The translations under genes and the position numbers were made by a program. Shown piece by piece: positions 32,996-43,850 of a stretch of DNA of 64,000 nt. This stretch comes from Taeniopygia guttata. Its lineage: Eukaryota > Chordata > Aves > Passeriformes > Estrildidae. The stretch's first letter is position 1. The number at the start of each line of letters is the position of its first letter. The DNA lies in NCBI RefSeq assembly GCF_048771995.1, contig NC_133028.1:687001-751000 (forward strand). Reading direction: 5' to 3'. The notes under the pieces were generated by a model, which was not told where the DNA came from, ran no database searches, and was given only the letters and a program-made list of their open reading frames with translations.

Positions 32996-33427
32996 CTACA
33001 ATGGATTGCCCTGTTGGTGAGTGGGGTATGCCAGTATGCTGATATCACCTCCCACTGATCTGCCTAGGAACTGTTTGAAATTTTTGGCAGTGTAAGCTGG
33101 ACCATTATCTCTTTTGATGCCTTGGGGAATGCCCAGAGTAGCAAACACTAGGAGAAAATGTTGGATGACATCTTTTGTCTTGTCTCCTGCGTGGGCTGAT
33201 GCAAATACAGCCCCAGGGAACGTATCTATGGACACATTAATGTATTTTTGTCTCCCAAAAGGTGCACAGTGTGTGACATCTGCCACAGCTGTAAACTTTC
33301 GAGGCCTCGGGGTTAACCCCAGCCCCCATGGATGGCAAAGCAAACTCCTGGCAATTGGGGCAGGAGCCCGTGATTGCTCTTCCTTGTTCCTTTGTGAGTT
33401 TAAACATCCAGACAAAGGCTGGCACAT
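32996..33427 (-). pseudogene. ERV integrase remnant
   Basis: The zinc-binding region is visible as CPNCQEFALPS in one frame. The catalytic core is visible in another as TAVADVTHCAPFGRQKYI, HFLLVFATLGIPQGIKRDN and GPAYTAKNFKQFLG. The first two acidic residues of the D,D-35-E triad are recognisable (ADVTH and RDNGP). The stretch that should carry the glutamate is degraded and followed by a stop. The frame changes between the zinc region and the core. Confidence 0.8.
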
Positions 33428-33837
33428 TTTGGTGGAAAAACTGATGGCTCAGTTTGGCCTGATTGAAAATCAGGTAGGGTGGTCTGCACTGCCATGGCTG
33501 GGAGATCTGCTCTCCAGCTACCCTCAGTGACTGGTCCTGGGAGGTCAGTGTGTGACCCCACGTGCATGATGTGATATGGTTGCTCTCGGTGGGAGAGGAG
33601 GTATATTAATTTTGAAAGTAATCTATATAGATCTGGATTTGGCACTTCCTTTAACAAAGAATGTTCTGCTCTTTCAGCTATCCCAGCAACACAGGCTGAA
33701 TCAGTAACTAAATTTAAGGGTTGTTTTAATTTCTCAAAGGCTCTGACAACAGCTGCTAATTCTGCAGTTTGTGGGGATCCTCGAACAATTTGAACATCAG
33801 ACTCCCACTCTTGAGTGTCAGGATCCTTCCACGTCAT
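33400..33837 (-). pseudogene. ERV RNase H remnant
   Basis: The frame shows SPQTAELAAVVRAFEKLKQP, LNLVTDSACVAGIAERAEHS and a later HVGSHTDLPGPVTEG. These correspond to the E-helix, the TDS active-site Asp and the HxxxH-like C-terminal segment of retroviral RNase H. It runs out of frame at the integrase border. Confidence 0.85.
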
Positions 33838-33905
33838 AACTGACTTGTGGGATCCCCCTGAACCATCAGTAAATCCAATCTATGCCTTTAGAGCAGTTCT
33901 AGTTT

Positions 33906-34220
33906 TTAATGAATCTGGGACCAAATTGAAGCAAGCATTAAATGGTTCATGTTTTGGTGGGTGAACGGAGATCTGGCCTGGCTGGCTGTCAAGAGCAAAC
34001 TGGAGGTGTTCATTGGTTTGGATAAAGCCTCTAGACGGTTTGATGTCACTGGAAGATTTATGGATGTGAATTCACACCCCACTAGGGTCCCGAGGTGAGC
34101 TCTGGCCTTTATGATAAGCTGGGCCATAAACTCCTGGGGTGTTGTGATGGTCTTGTTTGGTTTGTGTGACTGAAACACCCACTCTGTGATTAGGAGCTGA
34201 TCTCTTGAGTGGGGTCCCAC
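33906..34220 (-). pseudogene. ERV RT connection-domain remnant
   Basis: This open minus segment lies between the RT palm and RNase H in the expected order. The WVFQSHKPNKTITTPQEFMA part looks like the connection or tether region. Assignment is mainly positional. Confidence 0.5.
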
Positions 34221-34450
34221 TGGAAAACGAGCCCATGGAACTTGGGTGACTTACCCAGGATGGCAAATTGGAAGGGCAGGGTAGGATCAGCGTGGTGGGC
34301 TTGTCTTGCGGAGAATGCTTCTGATACCTTCTGGATCTCTACCTGGGTTTCTGGTGTGGTGGTTTGTGTGGAGTCAAGGTCATCAGGGCCTCTCAGAAGG
34401 TTGAAAAGGGGTGACAGGTCCTCGGTCCTGATCCCCAGCAGTGTACAAAC

Positions 34451-35160
34451 CTAGCTGATGCTCCCACAGAGCTGGTGGATGTCCCTCAGGGTTGTCCTTG
34501 AGGGTGAGCTGCTGGGGTACGATGGTCCGCTCGCCGATTCGGAATCCAAGGTAGGTGCACAGGCAGCTGTGCTGAATCTTCTCCGTAGCAATTTCAGATC
34601 CTGCTCCTTTGATGGCCTGAATTGTCTCTTTGAGAGCAGTCTACAGATAATGGTCACAGTGCAAATTAGAATATCGTCCATGTAGTGAAAAATGATGGCA
34701 TCAGGAAATCTTTCCCAAATGGGCGAGAGAATGTGGGCAACGAACACTTGGCAGATGGCTCATGAATTTTCCATCGCCTGAGGAAGAACTTGCCATTGTT
34801 ACCTTTTTAGAGGGGCTTGTCTATTAATTGATGGCACAGAAATTGCAAAACTTGGGGCATCTGTGGGATGGAGCGGGATGTTAAGAAGGAATCTCTGATA
34901 TCAATGACTGCCAATTTCCAATCTCAGGAGCGCTGAAGGTGAGGGCAGGCCAGGCTGTAAAGAGCCCATGTCCTCAATGACCTCGTTGACCTTTCTGATG
35001 TCTCGTAGGAGCCTCCACTTGTCTTTGCCTGTTTGCAAATGACAATGACGGGGCTGTTCCAAGGGCTGGTGGATGGTGCTGTGTGGCCCTTAGATAGCTG
35101 CTCCTGCACTAGGGATTCAAGCGCCTTTGTTTTGAGTTCTGCCTGGGGCCACTGTTCCAC
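34451..35160 (-). pseudogene. ERV reverse transcriptase remnant
   Basis: The RT entry segment (EQWPQAELKTKALESLVQEQ, then [17 protein letters not shown]) lies at 34,924-35,160. The catalytic palm with FHYMDDILI lies at 34,451-34,747. The intervening segment shows stops and frameshifts, so no functional enzyme can be made. The YMDD box and the [10 protein letters not shown] block are standard retroviral RT signatures. Confidence 0.85.
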
Positions 35161-35235
35161 CCAAGTGGCATCATCCGATTTCCGTGTGAGCGGTGAGGTG
35201 GGGCACTCTACAGTGGCCCCACGGGATTTCTACAG

Positions 35236-35740
35236 CTAGACATCCTGTGGGTGGGAAGGGATTTCTAGTCTGGCTCCCCATTGTGACAACAGATCTGTTC
35301 CCCAAAAGATGACAGGTGCCTTTACCACAAAAGGTCTTGCTGTGGCAATTTGACCCTCAGGACCTTTAATAAGGATTGACCTTTTACACCACACAGAGGT
35401 GGCAGCTCCTCCAATCCCAGAGATGACTCCATTGGCTGGCACAAATTCCCAGCCGAGTGGTGATGGTGGCATCTGTCCTGCTGTCAGCCATACCTGGAAG
35501 AGAAACTTTGATACCTTTGTTAGACACGCCACATTCTGTAAGAGGTCTGTCTTGGCCTAGCATCTCTGCCCAAAAAACCAGAGGATTTTCTGGCCAAACA
35601 TCAGCCCAGGTGGGTGCAAGAAAAGCTTGGGCAATGAGTGTGCCCTTAGTCAGACACCAGGGTGGGTCTGTACGTATTACAGCCACAGCGATCTCATCCA
35701 TCGGCCCCACAGTCTGGACTTCTGTAAGCACGTGTAACTC
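35236..35740 (-). pseudogene. ERV protease (and possible dUTPase) remnant
   Basis: The segment WGTDLLSQWGARLEIP near 35,245-35,300 is the C-terminal protease block (normally G-R-D-L/I-L). Upstream, MADSRTDATI resembles a diverged aspartic-protease active-site loop. The preceding DEIAVAVIRTDPPWCLTKGT and LIAQAFLAP look like a dUTPase-type tail. At least two frames are needed, so the region is broken. Confidence 0.7.
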
Positions 35741-36179
35741 GTTAACAGTGTCTCCTGTGATTAAAACGTCTCTTGGCCCATCAGGAGGTCCAGTTTGCCA
35801 GCTGGAATTCAGCAGATCGCCTCATCCTCGGATGCAAAGGAAAGGGCGCTCACCAGCGTTCTCCGTGTCCTGCCTGACGGCCTGGGTAGGCCTCGGAGAG
35901 TCAGCGCCCTTCCTCATAGTCAGTGTTGTCACAGGTGATTTCCCAGTGCCTCGATGCTCCGAGATTGTGGGAAAAGAGGGACAAAACAGCTCAAAAGAAA
36001 GATCTTGCAGGAGATTGGCTGGGTCAACCAGACCTCGAGGTCTTGAGGGTTGTCAGTGGGCCTCTGAGGAATTCCCCAGAAAATTTGGCTTTCTCCCCTC
36101 AGAGATCTGGAGCACTTGACTGTGACTTAAAATCCAGTGGCTGGCCAGTGGAGACGCTTTCAAAGGGCTAACGAGAAGC

Positions 36180-36197: not shown

Positions 36198-36200
36198 ATT

Positions 36201-36308
36201 TGTAGCAGCATGGGGTTTAGAAGGAGGAAGCTGCTACCTAATTCCCAAGAAGCATCTCCTATGGAAAAGCTGCTGCTTGGGTAGGAATTCAGCAAAGCAG
36301 TCAAGTCC
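36201..36308 (-). repeat. Inner partial LTR copy (likely R-U5)
   Basis: About 108 bp starting tgtagcagcatggggtttag and ending cagcaaagcagtcaagtcc. It is a diverged direct copy of 37,653-37,709 joined to 38,183-38,216. On its left is the PBS-like sequence and on its right the poly(T) that is the retrocopy's poly(A) tail. Read on the minus strand the order is poly(A), then R-U5, then PBS. Confidence 0.75.
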
Positions 36309-36446
36309 TTTTTTTTGTTGTTGTTGTTTTTTTTTGGGGGGGGTTTTTTTGGTTGTTTTTGGGTTTTTTTTTTTGTTTTTTTTGTTGTTTTTTTTTTTTT
36401 GTTTTTTTGTTTTTTTGGGGTTTTTTTCTGCCAGATCCCATTTATT
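36309..36446 (-). terminator. YJU2: YJU2 retrocopy poly(A) signal and poly(A) tail
   Basis: On the minus strand, AATAAA (36,441-36,446) is followed after 13 bp by an A-rich tract of about 119 bp (36,309-36,427), broken by C runs. Signal, spacing and tail together are what a reverse-transcribed mature mRNA leaves behind. The tail is unusually long but eroded. Confidence 0.88.
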
Positions 36447-36643
36447 CTAGAGCTGTGGCTGCTGGAGCCCAGCAGGCTCGGAAGAGCGGGGAGAGGTTTA
36501 TCCCAGGTTTGTCCCTGAGCTCCAGGGGACATCTGAGGGGGCTGGTGGTGGCAGGACAGCCCTGTCACCACAGTGTGGGGCTCCAGGAGCATCAGGGAGT
36601 GGGGACAGCCCCGTCCCTGCTCTGTCCCTGCCCTGCTGGCTCC

Positions 36644-37588
36644 TCAGTCGCTGGCACTGTCCTCGTAGGCTCCCAACAACCCCAGTGAAGACGTGGCTGC
36701 TGCTGCTGCTGGAAGCGAGCCGGTGGTGGCCGTGGTGCCTCGGGATTCCATCCCATTGTCCAGGGCAGGACCTGGCTTCTGCTTCCTGCGGGCCACCAGC
36801 CCAGCCAGCTGGGCCTTGGTGCTGAGCTTGCCCACGCTGCGCCCCCAGCTCGCCGGCCTCGGCCTCTTGCTCTGGGGGTGCTCCTGCAGGGTGTCCGTGG
36901 GTTTTCTTTGGGCCGTGGGATTTGGGCAGCGTTTTGCCAGTTCCTCGTCAGAGTCGGGATCCACCAGGAGCCGGCGGTTCTGGGCCTGTTCCAGCACGGC
37001 CTTCATCTCCTGCTTGTCCTCCTCCTGCTCCTTGCGCCTCTGCTCCTCCTCCAGCTCCTTGAACTGCTTCAGCATGGCCTCAAAATCCACGCTGGCCTGG
37101 CGCTGGTTGAGCTCCTTCAGCTCCTGCAGGTTCTCCAGGACCTCCATCTCCAGCTTGGAGTCCTTGGTTCGGTTCTCCAGGACCTTCATGGGATTGTTGA
37201 GCTCCTTCTCTTCCCTCTCCTTCTGCATCCTCTTCTCCTCCTCCTGCAGGAGCTTCTCTGCCTGGAAGTTCCTCGTGGCGCCGTGCTCCACGGCGTAATC
37301 CGCGTTCTCGGGGTCTGTCCTGAAGGTGATCTCAGCCAGGCAGCGCGTGCACTTGATGTAGAAGCGGAAGATGGGCAGCCCCAGGTAGGGCTCGCTCTGC
37401 ACCGTCTCCTTGCGGGCGTTGAACTTCTTGCCCTTGCAGATGTTCTCCCCACACGTCCTGCACCTCATGTTGAAGGGGGCCATGAGCCTCACCACGTACT
37501 GCCGCTCCTTCGGGAGCTTCAGCTTCGGGATCTTGGCCGGATCGAAGGCCGGGGGGTGATATTTGTTCAGCACTTTCCGTTCTGCCAT
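36644..37588 (-). CDS. YJU2: YJU2 (CCDC94) intronless retrocopy, intact reading frame
   Basis: This is an uninterrupted 314-codon frame that starts [19 protein letters not shown] and matches the splicing factor YJU2/CCDC94 over its whole length; the human protein is about 323 residues. YJU2 joins the spliceosome at the branching (first catalytic) step with the NineTeen-related proteins and acts in the nucleus. Visible landmarks are [20 protein letters not shown], the zinc-binding cysteines C43, C46, C80 and C83 (MRCRTCG and YIKCTRC), [32 protein letters not shown], and a long Glu/Lys coiled coil around residues 110-205. The tail is Ser/Ala-rich. Known YJU2 genes are split into several exons, but this copy has none and ends in a poly(A) tract, so it is a processed retrocopy. 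There is no stop, frameshift or lost zinc ligand, so it is either young or kept by selection. It lies between LTR copies of an ERV in the same orientation. Confidence 0.92.
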
Positions 37589-37650
37589 CGCTGCGGCTTC
37601 TCCTGGCCCCCGGTGCTGCCCCCGCGCCGCTCAGCCCACACTGGGCTGAG
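37589..37650 (-). other. YJU2: YJU2 retrocopy 5' UTR and junction hairpin
   Basis: About 60 bp of GC-rich leader lie between the start codon and the LTR end. The last 21 bp form a perfect inverted repeat with 9-bp arms (CTCAGCCCA / TGGGCTGAG) around a 3-base loop, exactly at the join to the LTR. This may be a fold-back formed during reverse transcription. Confidence 0.7.
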
Positions 37651-38350
37651 TTTGTAGCAGTGTGGGGTTTAGGTGGTGGAAGCTGCTGCCTAATTCCCAA
37701 GAAGCACCTTGTCTTGGTTTGAAACGTCCGATAAGGGAGGTGGGAGCCTCCCCTGAAATGGAAAATGTAAACAGCTGTGCTTCTGCTGGAGCAGGATCCT
37801 GCACAAGGGGGGAGTTTTCCTCTGCAGCTCCAGGGCTGGGGGAGATGGGCCTGGGCTCCTCTGGGAATGCAGTGGGAAGAAAGCTGCTCCTCTGGGAATG
37901 CAGGGGGCAAAGGCTGCTGTGCTGTTCCCAGATCAGATTATATCCAGGTAGGAATGCTCAGCTCCTCCCCTGGGTGGGGTGTCTCACAGTGGGACGATTG
38001 AATTTTATCAGTGTGACTCAATGGCCCGTGAACAGAAGAGATCTCCTGGAGGGAGGATTGGTTTGTGGAAGAGATAAAGAGAACTGCCCAATTAGCAGAA
38101 GATAATTGCCCCAGCTCTGACAGATGGAAACAGAACACACAACTAAATCTTTCAATCTAAGACACAGTGCCCTGTGTAAAGTGCTTGGGTAGGAATTCAG
38201 GCAAAGCAGTCAGTCCACACACCACGCTCACCGTGGCTAGCGCTGCCAAGAGAGGCAACAGGGGCCTTTTGTAGGATATATTCCAGTGAGGTTTATTCCA
38301 GCACGCCGAGGGACAGCCAGGGACAAAAGACAAGACCATGTGGTGTGCAT
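37651..38350 (-). repeat. Outer LTR copy of the ERV, interrupted by a younger LTR
   Basis: Positions 37,653-37,709 and 38,183-38,216 match the inner copy at 36,201-36,308 (tgtagcag...ggggtttag; gcttgggtaggaattcag). Beyond 38,216 the outer copy continues into sequence absent from the inner one, including a minus-strand AATAAA at about 38,291 and an ATATAT tract. This is probable U3/R. The outer edge is unresolved and could reach about 38,820. Read on the minus strand this LTR stands directly upstream of the YJU2 leader and could supply a promoter. Confidence 0.65.
37710..38166 (+). mobile_element. Solo LTR inserted in the outer LTR copy
   Basis: The insertion starts tgtcttggtttgaaacgtcc and continues gggagcctcccctgaaatgg and aaaatgtaaac, the start of a common passerine ERV LTR as I know it. 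It ends near ...ctttcaatctaagaca. It is present only in the outer copy and so arrived later. The target-site duplication could not be fixed by eye. Confidence 0.7.
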
Positions 38351-39314
38351 AATCTTAAATTTGGGTCAGCAGGCACAGGGGCACGGGGGCAGCACAAAGG
38401 GCAGGGCAAAGGGCAGCTGAGGCTGGCACCGGGGATACCACAGCCAGTGAGGAAACGGGGAAAGCAGAAACCCCTAGAATCTGGGGCATATGGGGAGGGC
38501 AAGCTGGGAGGATCAGTGTTGTGAGGCTCCATGGGGAAGTCTTCTCTGTGGTAGATGTTTCCAGGGTGAAGCCTGGAGGTTTCGAAGGGTTCTGCACAAA
38601 GGGCTCTGATTTACCTGGCTGAACTGGAGGTACTGTGGAAAGGGATAGGAAGGATGTTGCTCCCTCCCTCATCTGGCCGGGATTTTGGCTGGAGAAGGTG
38701 TCCGTGCAGGCAGAGGTGCGGTTGGAGTGGGATTTCAACATGAAAGGCATCTTCTCCCTCTTCTCCCCCTCCCAAAGTCACTGGGTCCTTTTAAAACCTC
38801 CCTGCTCTTCACTTGCTGCAGTGTAGACCATGACTTTGAAGAATGGTGCCTTTTGCCATAGGTTTCCTACCCCCAAAAGGCTCTGCAGCCCAATTCTCAG
38901 TCCCACACAACCTGCCTGGGGCAGGTTCCTCCCCTGTTTTCCTTCTCATGCAAGAAAAGGGAGTTCATGGTCACCCACAGACAGCAGAGCCTCCCCACCA
39001 CCGGAGCTCCGGCTCCTTCCAGGAGCTCTGCACAGCAGCTCAGAGAAGTGGGGGCAGAGATCAGGAGCTGACACGGCAGGGAAGGGCAGGCTGAGCATCC
39101 CAAGCTGAAATACAGCTGGAGACAGACAGAGTTGGGTCTGGTCCTGTCCAACCCTGGACCACTGCACGAGGCGGAGGAGGATTTGTTCCCTGGGAGCAGA
39201 GCAGGCATGAGCCTCGTGCTCCTTCCTGCCTCTGCCCTCGTGGCAGATCCCTGAGGCTGTGCACCGCTCCAGCTGTGTGTTCTGCTCTCCTCCCTCTGCG
39301 TTTCTGGGCTGGGA

Positions 39315-39465
39315 TGGGGTGGGATGGGGGTGGGATGGGATGGGATGGGATGGGATGGGATGGGATGGGATGGGATGGGATGGGATGGGATGGGATGGGA
39401 TGGGATGGGATGGGATGGGATGGGATGGGATGGGATGGGATGGGATGGGATGGGATGGGATGGGC
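39315..39465. repeat. (GGGAT)n microsatellite, about 29 copies
   Basis: A nearly pure GGGAT array with variant units at both ends (GGGGT, GGCTG). It is the third occurrence of this pentamer in the window. Confidence 0.95.
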
Positions 39466-40049
39466 TGGCTGGGATGGGGGTGTCCAAGGGAAGGTGTTTC
39501 TCCCATTTCAGAAAGCACCAGCAGCCTCTGTGCCCGTGGGATCGGCTCCCGTGGTCTGGCAGCCCCAGCCCCTCTCTGGCTGCCCAGCTGTGTCCCTGGA
39601 GCTGCAGGCAGTCCGCAGGAGCTGTGGGCACTGGGAAAGCAGCAGGGCATGGGAATGAGCGCTGGGAAAAGGGAGAGGAATTCCTCAGGTGGGCATTAAC
39701 AGGGGAGCCAACATCTCCCACGGGAGCCAGGGCCCCTCTCTGGCTCCCACCCACACAAACATCCCGTTCTTGGCCCTGTGCCCCTGCAGGGACGGCTGCT
39801 GGTGCTCCCCACACAAGTGCCAATGTTTGTATGGATCCCACGGCCCCTCCTTCCCACCTCTCCCTCCTCTCCCGTCGTGTCTCACCGCCTCCCTCAGCCC
39901 CCTCTGCCTTAGTCAGCTCTGCCTTCTTTTGCTCCAAAAGCCTGAATGTTTTGCACTCGAATATAAAAAGTTCCTCTCAGAGCTCAGGAGGTTGTGCCAG
40001 GTGTGCAGCCCTGCCAGCAATAGGTGCTTCCACATCTCCTGTTCCCAGC

Positions 40050-40720
40050 AATCCCTGTTCTGTTCCCTTATCTCCTTTCTCAGCAGTCCCTGTTCTGTTC
40101 CCTTATCTCCTTTCTCAGCAATTCCTGTTCTGTTCCCTTATCTCCTTTCTCAGCAATCCCTGTTCTGTTCCCTTATCTCCTTTCTCAGCAATCCCTGTTC
40201 CCTCCTTTCCTGCCTTTCCAGCAATAGGTGCTTCCACATTTCTTGCCTTTCTAGCAATACCTGTTCTCCTCCCTCACCTCCAGCCTTTCCAGCAATTCCT
40301 GTTCTATTCCTTCATCTCCTGCCTTTCCAGCAATGGGTGCTTCCATAGCTCCCATTTCCAGCAATATCTGCTCTTTCCATCTCCTGTTTCCAGCAATACC
40401 TGTTCCTCATCTCCAGCCTTTCCAGCAATAGGTGCTTCCACACCTCCTGCCTTTCTAGCAATACCTGTTCTGTTCCCTCACCCCCTGCCTTTTCAGCAAT
40501 TCCTGTTTTATTCCCTCATCTCCTGCCTTTTCAGCAATGGGTGCTTCCACTCCTCTGCCTTTCTAGCAATAGTGGTTCTGTTTCCTCTCTCCTACCCCTG
40601 CAGCAGTGGTGTTTTCCTCTCTCCTGCCCTTGCAGCAGTGGTGTTTCCCTCTCTCCTGCCCTTGCAGCAGTGGTGTTCCCTCTCTCCTGCCTCTCCAGCA
40701 GAACTGTTCCCTCATCTCCC
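40050..40720. repeat. Degenerate minisatellite of about 36-46 bp
   Basis: Blocks such as ttcccttatctcctttctca and gcaatccctgttctg recur more than ten times. They become less regular to the right, where tgcagcagtggtgtt units take over. Confidence 0.85.
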
Positions 40721-41750
40721 CTTTGCAGCCATCCCTGCCCCTCCCAGCCCCAGGAGCCCAGGTGAGCAGGGGTCCCTTCCCTTGCTGCTGGAGCTCAGTG
40801 GGGCAGCGATGGAGGCTCCGTGTCTGTCCCGCAGTGACAGGACCAGCGGGTCCCTCCCAGTTCAGCGGGTCCCTCCCAGTTCAGCAGGTCCCTCCTGTGC
40901 TGGGAAAGGTGTCTGACAGATGCTCCTGTCTCTGTTCTCTGTTTCCCCGCCCTGCTGGGCTGGAGATTTGGGGTTCCCCCTCAGCACACAGAATTTTTGT
41001 GCAGAAGAGCAGCCCAGCAGCACTGGGGTGGAGGCTGTAGTGCTGCTGTTAAACCCCCACCTCCCAAGGGAACGCTTTGGAGGACCTAAGTGCTTCCTCA
41101 GAGCGGGAGGGGATGGGGAAGAGAACTGGGAATTGTGCTCAACTTGCCCATGTGGGATTTATCTCTGTGGTTAGTGACTGAATCTCCCATTCAGTGATTT
41201 ATTTGGGATCCTGGGGCAGGAGCAGCGTTCCTGCTCTGTGCCCTGAGCTCTGTCCCTCTCTGCTGGGCCCAGCACACCCCCGGGGTTCTCTGGGCCAGGC
41301 AGCTTCTCCCTGGTCTGTTTTAATCACATCCGTGACCATCCCTGTGCTTTCGCCTTTCTCCTGGTGTTTGTTTTCCCAGCAGGCTGCAGCAGGGTGCTGT
41401 GCTCTGCCTTTGCTGCCGGCCCACAGCGGGGTTTGTTTCTCTGTGCTTTAGCCAAATTCTTTTCCCCTTGCCTGAACCACCCAGGTTCATCCTCAAGCTG
41501 GAACAAAGCTGGGGCATGTGGATTCTCCAGTGTGACGCAGCCTCAGCCGTGTCTGGGAGGGAACCGCCGTGTTTGGGGTTAAAAACCTGGAAAAACGTCC
41601 CAGGTGGGAGAAGTGTTGGGGTTTTTGGAGTTGTTGGTTTCCCTGTTCTTCACGTCCGTGGGAAGCGGGTTCTGTGTGTCTCACGTTTTAAGAGCTGCAA
41701 CTAATGTTTATAAAGAGCTTGTTATTTACGTTTTAAGCACTTTAAAAAAA

Positions 41751-41756
41751 AATAAA
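41751..41756 (+). terminator. Candidate poly(A) signal AATAAA (possible RAB11FIP5 3' end)
   Basis: AATAAA follows an A/T-rich run and is followed after about 50 bp by a GT-rich stretch (gcgtctgtgctgacgg). The preceding 700 bp have the mixed composition of a 3' UTR. It is the only well-formed plus-strand signal I saw between the RAB11FIP5 stop and SFXN5. The link to RAB11FIP5 is inference. Confidence 0.4.
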
Positions 41757-41851
41757 AGTTGTTCAAGCTGTTCCTAGACACTTCTGATTCATTGACAACA
41801 GCGTCTGTGCTGACGGCGCCTGGACACCGAGTGACATCTCTGATTGTCTGC

Positions 41852-41913
41852 AGCACGAGGAGGAGGAGGAGGAGGAAGAGGAGGAGGAGGAGGAAGAGGA
41901 GGAGGAGGAGGAT
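41852..41913. repeat. (GAG)n/(GAA) trinucleotide run
   Basis: GAG triplets interrupted by GAA over about 60 bp. It begins a purine-rich domain that continues at 42,031. Confidence 0.9.
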
Positions 41914-42030
41914 GGTGCCCAACTCCTCCTGCAGTTTTTCCACCTGCCCTGCCAGTCCCTGGGCGCTGTGCAGTGGGAATGCTGCAGGAACCTCGAGTTC
42001 CACCCCAAATCCTGCTCCTGGCCCAGGTGT

Positions 42031-42476
42031 GGGGAGGGGAGGGGAGGGGAGGGGAGGGGAGGGGAGGGGAGGGGAGGGGAGGGGAGGGGAGGGGAGGGGA
42101 GGGGGAGGGGAGGGGAGGGGAGGGGAGGGAAGGGAAGGGAAGGGAAGGGAAGGGAAGGGAAGGGAAGGGGAAGGGAAGGAAGGGAAGGAAGGGAAGGGAA
42201 GGGAAGGGAAGGGAAGGGAAGGGAAGGAAGGGAAGGGAAGGGAAGGGAAGGGAAGGGAAGGGAAGGAAAGGAAAGGAAAGGAAAGGAAAGGAAAGGAAAG
42301 GAAAGGAAAGGAAAGGAAAGGAAAGGAAAGGAAAGGAAAGGAAAGGAAAGGAAAGGAAAGGAAAGGAAAGGAAAGGAAAGGAAAGGAAAGGAAAGGAAAG
42401 GAAAGGAAAGGAAAGGAAAGGAAAGGAAAGGAAAGGAAAGGAAAGGAAAGGAAAGGAAAGAAGGAAAGGAAAGGAA
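42031..42476. repeat. Graded polypurine array GGGGA to GGGAA to GGAAA
   Basis: About 446 bp are purine-only on the plus strand. The unit changes in steps: GGGGA from 42,031 to about 42,126, GGGAA (with shorter GGAA units) to about 42,267, and GGAAA to about 42,460. The period stays mostly 5 bp. Open frames of over 300 codons here are artefacts of the repeat. Confidence 0.96.
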
Positions 42477-43004
42477 GTTTGGGCTGTGGGCTGAGCTGGG
42501 CCCCCTGTGAAAGCGGATCCATGCCAGGACACAGGACAGGCACCCAGAGCAGTCCCTGGGAGAGCTGGGCTCTGGAATCCGGGCAAACAGAGGATTTAAA
42601 GCCCCGTGCTGCTGCAGCCCTGCCTCCGTGGCTGCCTGGAGCACAGAACAATTCCCAGCCCTGCAGAGTGCCTGCCGTGCTGTGCCAAGCTGGAGTTTGC
42701 TGCCCAAAGCGAGTTTGCTCCAAATCTGCCTCTCCAGACAGAGGCTGACAAGGAATGTTCTGTGACTTCGTCCTGCAGCCAGCCCGGCCCCACACCCGCT
42801 GTCCCCTGGGGGGCTGGGACCCCCAAAACTCCCTCGTGGGGTGGGGGGACCCTGGGTGGGCCCCAGGCGCCCCCAAAACTGCTCTCACTGCCCTCCTCAG
42901 CTGGGCAGGGAGAGAAAATACAACAAAAATCCCATTTGGGGATGAGGGCAGGGAGAGATCCCTCTGAACCCACAGGGACTGGAACGGGAACAAGGGATGG
43001 AGGA

Positions 43005-43190
43005 AATCAGTTCAATTTATTAATTCAATTTATTGCCAATCCAACCAGAGCAGGACAACGAGAAATAAATCAGTTTGATTTATTAATTTAACTTATTGCA
43101 CATCAAACCAGAGCAGGGCAATGAGAAATAAATCAGTTTGATTTATTAACTTATTGCACATCAAACCAGAGCAGGGCAACAAGAAACAAA
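43005..43190. repeat. 63-bp tandem repeat, 3 copies
   Basis: The units start at 43,005, 43,068 and 43,131 with aatcagtt and contain aaccagagcagg. They are A/T-rich, unlike the surrounding GC-rich DNA. Confidence 0.9.
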
Positions 43191-43335
43191 CTCCAATCTT
43201 AAATCGTTTTTTCCCCACTCCTCCTTCCTTCCCAGGCTCAATTTCCCTCATGCTTCTCTCCCTCCTCCTTCCAAGTGGTGCAGGGGGGCAGGGAATGGGG
43301 CTGTGCTCAGTCCCTGACACTGTCACTGCGCTCCT

Positions 43336-43406
43336 TCCTCCTCCTCCTCCTCCTCCTCCTCCTCCTCCTCCTCCTCCTCCTCCTCCTCCTCCTCCTCCTC
43401 CTCCTC
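43336..43406. repeat. (TCC)n trinucleotide run
   Basis: About 23 pure TCC/CTC triplets. Confidence 0.95.
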
Positions 43407-43439
43407 ACACTCTGCCCTGCTCCAGCGTGGGCTTCCCAT

Positions 43440-43850
43440 GGCTTCAAACTTCTTCAGGGGCTTCCCACGGGGTTCAGTCTCCTTCAGGGGCCTCTTATGG
43501 GGTCACAGCTCCTTCAAGGGCTTCCCACGGGGTCACACCCCCTTTGGGGGCTTCCCTTGGTGTCACAGTTCCTTCAGGGCTTCTCATGAGGTTCAATCTC
43601 CTCCAAGGGCTTTTCATGGAGTCAGACCTTCTTCAGCAGCCTCTTATGGGGTCACACTCCCTTCAGGGGCTTTTATGGGGTTACAGCTCCTTCAGGAGCT
43701 TCTCATGGGTTCAGTCTCCTTCAGGAGATTCTTATGGGGTCACAGCTCCTTCAGGGACTTCCCTTGGGGTTCAGTTTCCTTCAGGGTCTTCTTATGGGGT
43801 CAGACCTCCTTCAGCATCTTCCCTTGGGGTCACAGCGTCCGGGATCTCCT
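43440..43850. repeat. Degenerate minisatellite of about 30 bp
   Basis: Units carry the cores ccttcaggggcttcc and tatggggtcacagctc about 13 times. There is drift between units and no higher-order pattern that I could see. Confidence 0.8.

Follow-up and report, generated by a model that had tools for sequence, protein, structure and literature searches.

An old processed YJU2 copy embedded in an endogenous retrovirus of the zebra finch and apparently shared with related songbirds

The minus strand of the window (the whole 64,000-nt stretch of Taeniopygia guttata DNA that was analysed) carries at 37588-36644 a processed retrocopy of the YJU2 gene. This copy is embedded in an endogenous retrovirus (ERV), a setting that is new here and that the first-pass annotation had missed. 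In kind, the locus is an ordinary processed retrocopy; it is old and apparently shared with other songbirds, and its retroviral setting fits a retroviral origin. We consider it rather probable that the old copy was made by the retrovirus and carried in its leader.

The retrocopy consists of the following parts:

37630..37650, minus strand: inverted repeat CTCAGCCCA-GTG-TGGGCTGAG at the 5' end of the retrocopy, the arms being perfect reverse complements
36644..37588, minus strand: YJU2 open reading frame (ORF), 314 codons plus stop, ATG to TGA, intronless
36428..36643, minus strand: 3'UTR, aligned to the parent, with AATAAA at 36446-36441
36309..36427, minus strand: A-rich tract, the remnant of a poly(A) tail, as read in the sequence

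The uninterrupted 314-codon copy described by the first-pass annotation was confirmed. Its ORF matched Pfam PF04502 (Saf4_Yju2) with 344.5 bits against a cut-off of 27.8 over residues 9-312, near full length, and a YJU2 family search of the genome recovered it with 342.5 bits over positions 1-331 of 332, far above chance. The four cysteines said to be retained (C43, C46, C80 and C83), which we take to be zinc ligands in YJU2/CWC16, were all present. The AATAAA and the eroded poly(A) tail also stood as described: the A-rich tract starts at 36427, directly 3' of ...GATCTGGCAG, and ends at 36309. The same ...GATCTGGCAG occurs in the parent YJU2, 3' of the parental AATAAA; that is, poly(A) follows just 3' of the parental polyadenylation signal, as in a processed retrocopy, with the parental cleavage site read from the retrocopy sequence and not from transcripts. 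The span 36309-37650 ends exactly at both junctions of the retrocopy, and the 9-bp inverted repeat separates the cDNA from the upstream long terminal repeat (LTR).

A multi-exon parent elsewhere in the genome, the first thing that the annotation had proposed to look for, was found by the family search (1.14 Gb, 41 contigs) on contig C30, whereas the retrocopy lies on C5, where the window occupies 687001-751000. The parent YJU2 has eight exons with GT/AG introns, and its spliced product of 321 residues is identical letter for letter to the T. guttata YJU2 record P0004, which may derive from the same assembly. All eight exons are represented by pieces in the retrocopy, in order and with zero introns, which bears out the reading of a processed YJU2 retrocopy in a bird genome. 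Two exon matches belonged to another family member on C32, presumably YJU2B. When the genome was searched for other YJU2 copies, the 15 matches were the retrocopy, nine on C30 (the parent) and five that were short and weak. Aligning the copy with its parent gave 55 differences over 942 coding bases (dS 0.082, dN 0.055) and 24 over 195 bases of 3'UTR, the latter a proportion exceeding dS. The 3'UTR of the copy is without 400 bp found in the parent, a segment bounded by 14-bp direct repeats; such a difference would result from a jump during reverse transcription, from a subsequent deletion or from sequence that the parent gained afterwards.

The retroviral setting was resolved into the following features:

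38167..38598, minus strand: first part of an ERV LTR, starting with TGTGCAG and in sense orientation to the retrocopy, 72-79% identical to the LTR copies L038-L040
37710..38166, minus strand: second, unrelated LTR-like repeat within the first LTR, with a relative in L023 and its 5' limit at about 38166
37651..37709, minus strand: last 59 bases of the first LTR, with TACAAA directly at the junction to the retrocopy; 52 of the 59 agree with 36257-36199
36199..36308, minus strand: the final 110 bases of the LTR in a second copy, directly abutting the end of the poly(A) and recurring in the genome
36180..36197, minus strand: stretch TGGCACCTTGACCACGGG resembling a primer-binding site (PBS), in position and with similar letters as in L038
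35239..35556, minus strand: decayed protease (Pfam RVP, 24.9 bits, cut-off 20.7)
34193..34759, minus strand: decayed reverse transcriptase (RVT_1, 19.4 bits, below the cut-off of 29.6; RVT_thumb, 29.5 bits, above the cut-off of 27.6)
33403..33879, minus strand: decayed RNase H (Pfam RNase_H, 28 bits, cut-off 25.8)
32999..33448, minus strand: decayed integrase (Pfam rve, 41.9 bits, cut-off 32.6)

Upstream of YJU2 thus lies a complete LTR of the family, running from 38598 (a start placed by comparison among family copies) to 37651 and interrupted by the second LTR-type repeat. The segment 37651..37709 includes up to two bases past TACA; the family LTRs end at TACAA. Downstream of YJU2 lie an LTR end, the PBS-like site and pro-pol, so the cDNA has LTR or retroviral sequence attached at each end. 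Protease, reverse transcriptase, RNase H and integrase follow in that order on one strand, with Pfam matches in five of the ten pieces submitted. The region 34300-36150 matched 39 other scored places in the genome, many at 66-70% and the longest at 77%. For 36308-36199 there were 27 genome matches, including its own site and the upstream partner, and 19 of these ended at query base 108-111. The inserted repeat at 37710-38166 belongs to a very common family (55 matches from 40 scored of 2087 candidates) and separates the old promoter region of the LTR from YJU2. Further upstream, dense minisatellite and simple-repeat arrays occupy 39305-43832.

Other family copies show what the element looks like without YJU2. 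In the provirus-like copy L038, the LTR is directly followed by TTGGTGCC, with no insert; in the window, the 110-base LTR end is followed by TTGGCACC and then by L038-matching sequence to 35991. L039-L041 are LTR ends in other flanks. A 6-bp duplication, ATACCT, surrounds the TG...CA LTR of L040, and L039 was similar with one mismatch (by eye). The two LTR ends in the window share three bases missing from four family copies. If the insert edge is disregarded, 7 of 90 positions separate them, a value similar to the parent-copy dS and the lowest for either end, with the pairs upstream-L039 and downstream-L038 one base behind at 8 of 91 each. With the insert edge included, the downstream copy differs from L038 and L039 at 11 of 107 positions each and from its upstream partner at 15 of 106. 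By these comparisons the two window ends are likely, though not firmly, sisters.

In retroviruses, the minus strand is begun at the PBS and extended over U5 and R, after which it has to transfer to a 3' end adjoining poly(A). On the reading that we favour, a viral particle would have co-packaged YJU2 mRNA, and minus-strand DNA primed at the PBS would have copied 110 bases of U5 before jumping onto the poly(A) tail of the YJU2 mRNA instead of the viral 3' end. The mRNA would have been copied through to its 5' end, after which the strand would have jumped back onto viral RNA where U5 meets the PBS, the site of the primer tRNA, and been completed in the normal way. The first jump would give the order cDNA-poly(A)-U5-PBS, as observed downstream, and the return jump would give LTR-cDNA, as observed upstream. 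The host at integration would have been an early passeroid living some 20 million years ago, and a promoter for the YJU2 copy could have come from the LTR. This model is favoured by one junction lying at the U5/PBS edge and the other flush with the poly(A). Against it, the jump would have begun 110 bases into the LTR end, where there is no obvious RNA end, and a 110-bp target-site duplication (TSD) would look identical, bar the coincidence with the LTR end. A pattern search of the genome for other poly(A)-U5 joins yielded 27+5 against 20+41 in the control, which is no excess; the pattern missed the broken A tract of this very locus.

The duplication figures in an alternative that we hold possible but doubtful: YJU2 mRNA would have been inserted by LINE-type target priming into a provirus already in place, within its LTR, and the 110-base repeat would be a long TSD. 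Poly(A), flush direct repeats and a near full-length cDNA are the usual traces of such an event, and in a cell assay some L1 insertions are noted to carry extremely long TSDs (PMC2912911). The same source puts the peak of human L1 TSDs near 15 bp, whereas the repeat flanking the insert here measures 110 bases and forms the terminal part of an LTR. A TSD would also need to have stopped, by coincidence, no more than a base or two from the LTR/PBS edge, and the sequence at the first junction has no T-rich cleavage site. Moreover, published accounts portray CR1, the principal LINE of birds, as in general incapable of producing retrocopies (PMC3136929, PMC8232201). A 110-bp TSD in unique host DNA had also been considered and was dropped because the 110 bases are the end of a repeated LTR.

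The scarcity of retrocopies in birds, stated by the annotation, agrees with the 78 given for chicken (PMC3136929). Birds have few of them because their main LINE works poorly on poly(A) messages. With a retroviral reverse transcriptase as the enzyme, the presence of a poly(A) retrocopy in a bird would be accounted for, and the retroviral embedding suggests a way out of the CR1 paradox. Some 20 million years on, the locus retains junctions that point to a retrovirus as the source of the enzyme. Chicken retrocopies are described as arising by both LTR- and non-LTR-mediated routes (PMC5408686), and a vertebrate-wide retrocopy screen covers birds (PMC13320880). The locus resembles LTR-mediated retroposition (Tan et al. 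2016, as cited in PMC5408686 and PMC8232201), in which an intronless host cDNA is flanked by LTR and for which chicken is among the reported species. Compared with those review descriptions, the insert here differs in lying between LTR and PBS-like site, with poly(A) and a repeated LTR end. The DYNLRB1 retrogene on the parrot W is, by its description, likewise an intronless bird retrogene ascribed to LTR-mediated retroposition, but it concerns another gene in another lineage and is seemingly not expressed from the W (PMC8854603). The literature search on YJU2 and retrogenes returned only an Arabidopsis paper, and that on YJU2 and zebra finch returned nothing; the former describes three unexpressed retrocopies of CWC16b, a CCDC94/YJU2-type gene, which are similar in kind but are plant copies from unrelated events (PMC5473141).

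In retroviral oncogene transduction, host mRNA poly(A) can be joined to viral sequence at the 3' junction. Here, by contrast, the poly(A) junction lies upstream of a PBS-like site and the element is endogenous. We think it unlikely that a passeroid retrovirus carried YJU2 within its LTR as viral cargo, giving an LTR-driven gene that served several songbird families over millions of years and then decayed in the zebra finch line. In such a case, the first strand transfer would have gone astray and left YJU2, its poly(A) and a second U5 in each of the two LTRs. No further LTR copy of the family, a 3' LTR included, was found within the window, and the predicted second chimeric LTR is thus not visible there.

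We traced the copy in other birds using a protein search (best 120 of 3024 matches listed; numbers prefixed with P denote its proteins) and a profile search (best 120 of 5062 matches listed, 8000 candidates scored). On a main tree of 38 chosen rows, the window copy and 12 other rows formed one clade with support 99/90, and 11 of these 12 partners came from named songbirds. The partners were the T. guttata YJU2-like protein P0001 (97%), the assembly record P0002, and proteins of Hypocryptadius, Motacilla, Serinus, Coccothraustes, Ammospiza, Calcarius, Agelaius, Rhodinocichla, Peucedramus and Prunella. A faster 66-row tree recovered the clade with P0003 added (14 rows, support 92). P0003, nearly equal to P0002, and Pyrgilauda P0032, which fell outside the clade, were left out of the clade counts. 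We take the eleven named species to be Passeroidea by current phylogeny; NCBI taxonomy places Peucedramus in Passeroidea and Rhodinocichla in Thraupidae, with no superfamily. Hypocryptadius cinnamomeus (P0009) is listed there under Zosteropidae (Sylvioidea), yet its protein falls within the passeroid retrocopy clade. A placement of Hypocryptadius with the sparrows would presumably predict this position.

Clade members share several changes. Two residues of a PQPQ stretch are missing in 13 of 13 clade rows, a loss also seen in the parents of three tits and Chamaea and in Pyrgilauda. T99A was present in 12, K44R in 11 and K244R in all 13 of the rows, K244R occurring also in several parents. C5 measures 73.8 Mb, and the clade proteins of Motacilla, hawfinch and Ammospiza lie on contigs of 72.6, 76.0 and 77.8 Mb, as expected from one shared site; the remaining rows come from much shorter contigs or have none listed. 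Related songbirds thus appear to share the same old copy, judging from proteins and contig sizes and not from flanking DNA. A recent estrildid retrocopy, independent of the other passeroid copies, seems quite improbable to us. It would account for the ancestral K24, T81, E94 and N280, which are kept here and changed in most clade members, and the AU test was barely below 0.05 when the window pair was forced to group with the parents of T. guttata, Vidua, Anomalospiza and Chloebia (worse fit, p-AU 0.0475). The clade support, the same chromosome size, the two-residue loss and the substitutions common to most or all clade rows speak against it.

Neutral change proceeds near 2e-9 per site and year, at which a dS of 0.082 corresponds to an age of about 20 million years; an age from 3'UTR divergence would come out higher. 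The annotation had offered that an open copy is either very recent or selected. Given this dS and the closely related proteins of other songbirds, the copy is not young. The annotation had also raised a second, lineage-specific YJU2 gene; the grouping with other songbird proteins indicates that the copy is not peculiar to the zebra finch. A YJU2-like protein was already on record for T. guttata (P0001), differing from the window ORF by nine residues and an alanine count; the two may represent alleles, subspecies or a second copy. No exact match to the window ORF was present among the 120 proteins listed (best 120 of 3024). P0002 and P0003 (source lgn) come from contigs of 1477 and 1424 bases, about the length of an mRNA, and carry clade ORFs. 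They could be transcripts; genomic reads of an intronless locus would look alike. An assembly artefact or contamination is hardly credible: no point supporting it was found, the contig measures 73.8 Mb, nr holds a 97% identical T. guttata protein, and the flanking repeats belong to families of the same genome.

We assessed selection by counting changes private to each tip at invariant sites, defined as those at which 11 non-oscine rows agree (205 of 321 sites); the neutral expectation for the share of changes at such sites is 0.642. Oscine parents (19 rows) had five changes at invariant and 42 at variable sites (5/47), and the retrocopy clade (13 rows) had 60 of each. Without the zebra finch rows, 57 of the 116 tip changes in the clade fell at invariant sites (p-value 0.00065), and on also removing Prunella, the row most opposed to constraint, 39 of 94 did so (p-value 6e-6). 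The clade relatives are thus under significant but weak constraint, in a set of intact copies that is biased, since open copies have a better chance of entering protein annotation. On the zebra finch stem, 13 of 19 changes hit invariant sites, among them Y49, Y51 and D14; where the two zebra finch rows disagree with each other, the figure is five of nine. The total of 18/28 matches the neutral share.

Between parent and copy, dN/dS was 0.67 (bootstrap 0.39-1.36). This ratio, which the annotation had proposed to compute, gave no clear selection in the zebra finch, while weak constraint was seen in relatives. Neither it nor the invariant-site test indicated purifying selection on the zebra finch copy, and the idea that the open copy is a selected one received no clear support there. 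The copy is readable, with no clear sign that selection still protects it. A working second YJU2 gene under selection in the zebra finch is accordingly unlikely in our view. Its case rests on the retained zinc cysteines, on the constraint in relatives and on a frame still open after about 49 expected substitutions. For a neutral copy, the chance of no stop is 0.21-0.29, assuming 33 nonsynonymous changes on the branch (our own estimate), and that of no frameshift is 0.006-0.15, varying with the assumed indel rate. Opposed to this are the dN/dS interval spanning 1, the 13 invariant sites altered on the zebra finch stem, Y49, Y51 and D14 among them, and the two T. guttata copy versions differing at nine residues while the parent equals its T. 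guttata record (maybe of the same assembly). An open frame by luck alone is unlikely, and earlier constraint may be another reading. On the favoured model, the ORF would have stayed open under weak constraint in other passeroids, and the zebra finch copy would now be drifting, its intact frame being luck or a leftover. Selection inferred from the open frame alone was weakened by the invariant-site test, and three in-frame coding indels were set aside as evidence of selection on the frame because they lie in short repeats (alignment by eye).

As an apparently shared and datable retrogene, the copy allows its fate to be traced, from weak constraint in some songbirds to drift in the zebra finch. 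The analysis suggests that songbird YJU2-like records, and some YJU2 records, are retrocopies rather than the parent gene. A second fast-evolving set of songbird YJU2 proteins comprised 14 rows (P0027, P0039, P0043, P0044, P0047-P0052, P0056, P0074, P0080 and P0086), marked by E94K in 10 of the 14 and by other changes, with support 91 on a quick tree. It had 88 changes at invariant and 96 at variable sites (p-value 4e-6) and included a Catharus YJU2-like protein on a 165.8-Mb contig. These proteins possibly stem from one or more further retrocopies at other sites. Further YJU2-like records were P0068 (Prinia, on a 107.8-Mb contig), P0083 (Cyanocitta) and P0032 (Pyrgilauda); going by their proteins, they may be separate retrocopies, and songbirds may have seen repeated retroposition of YJU2 mRNA.
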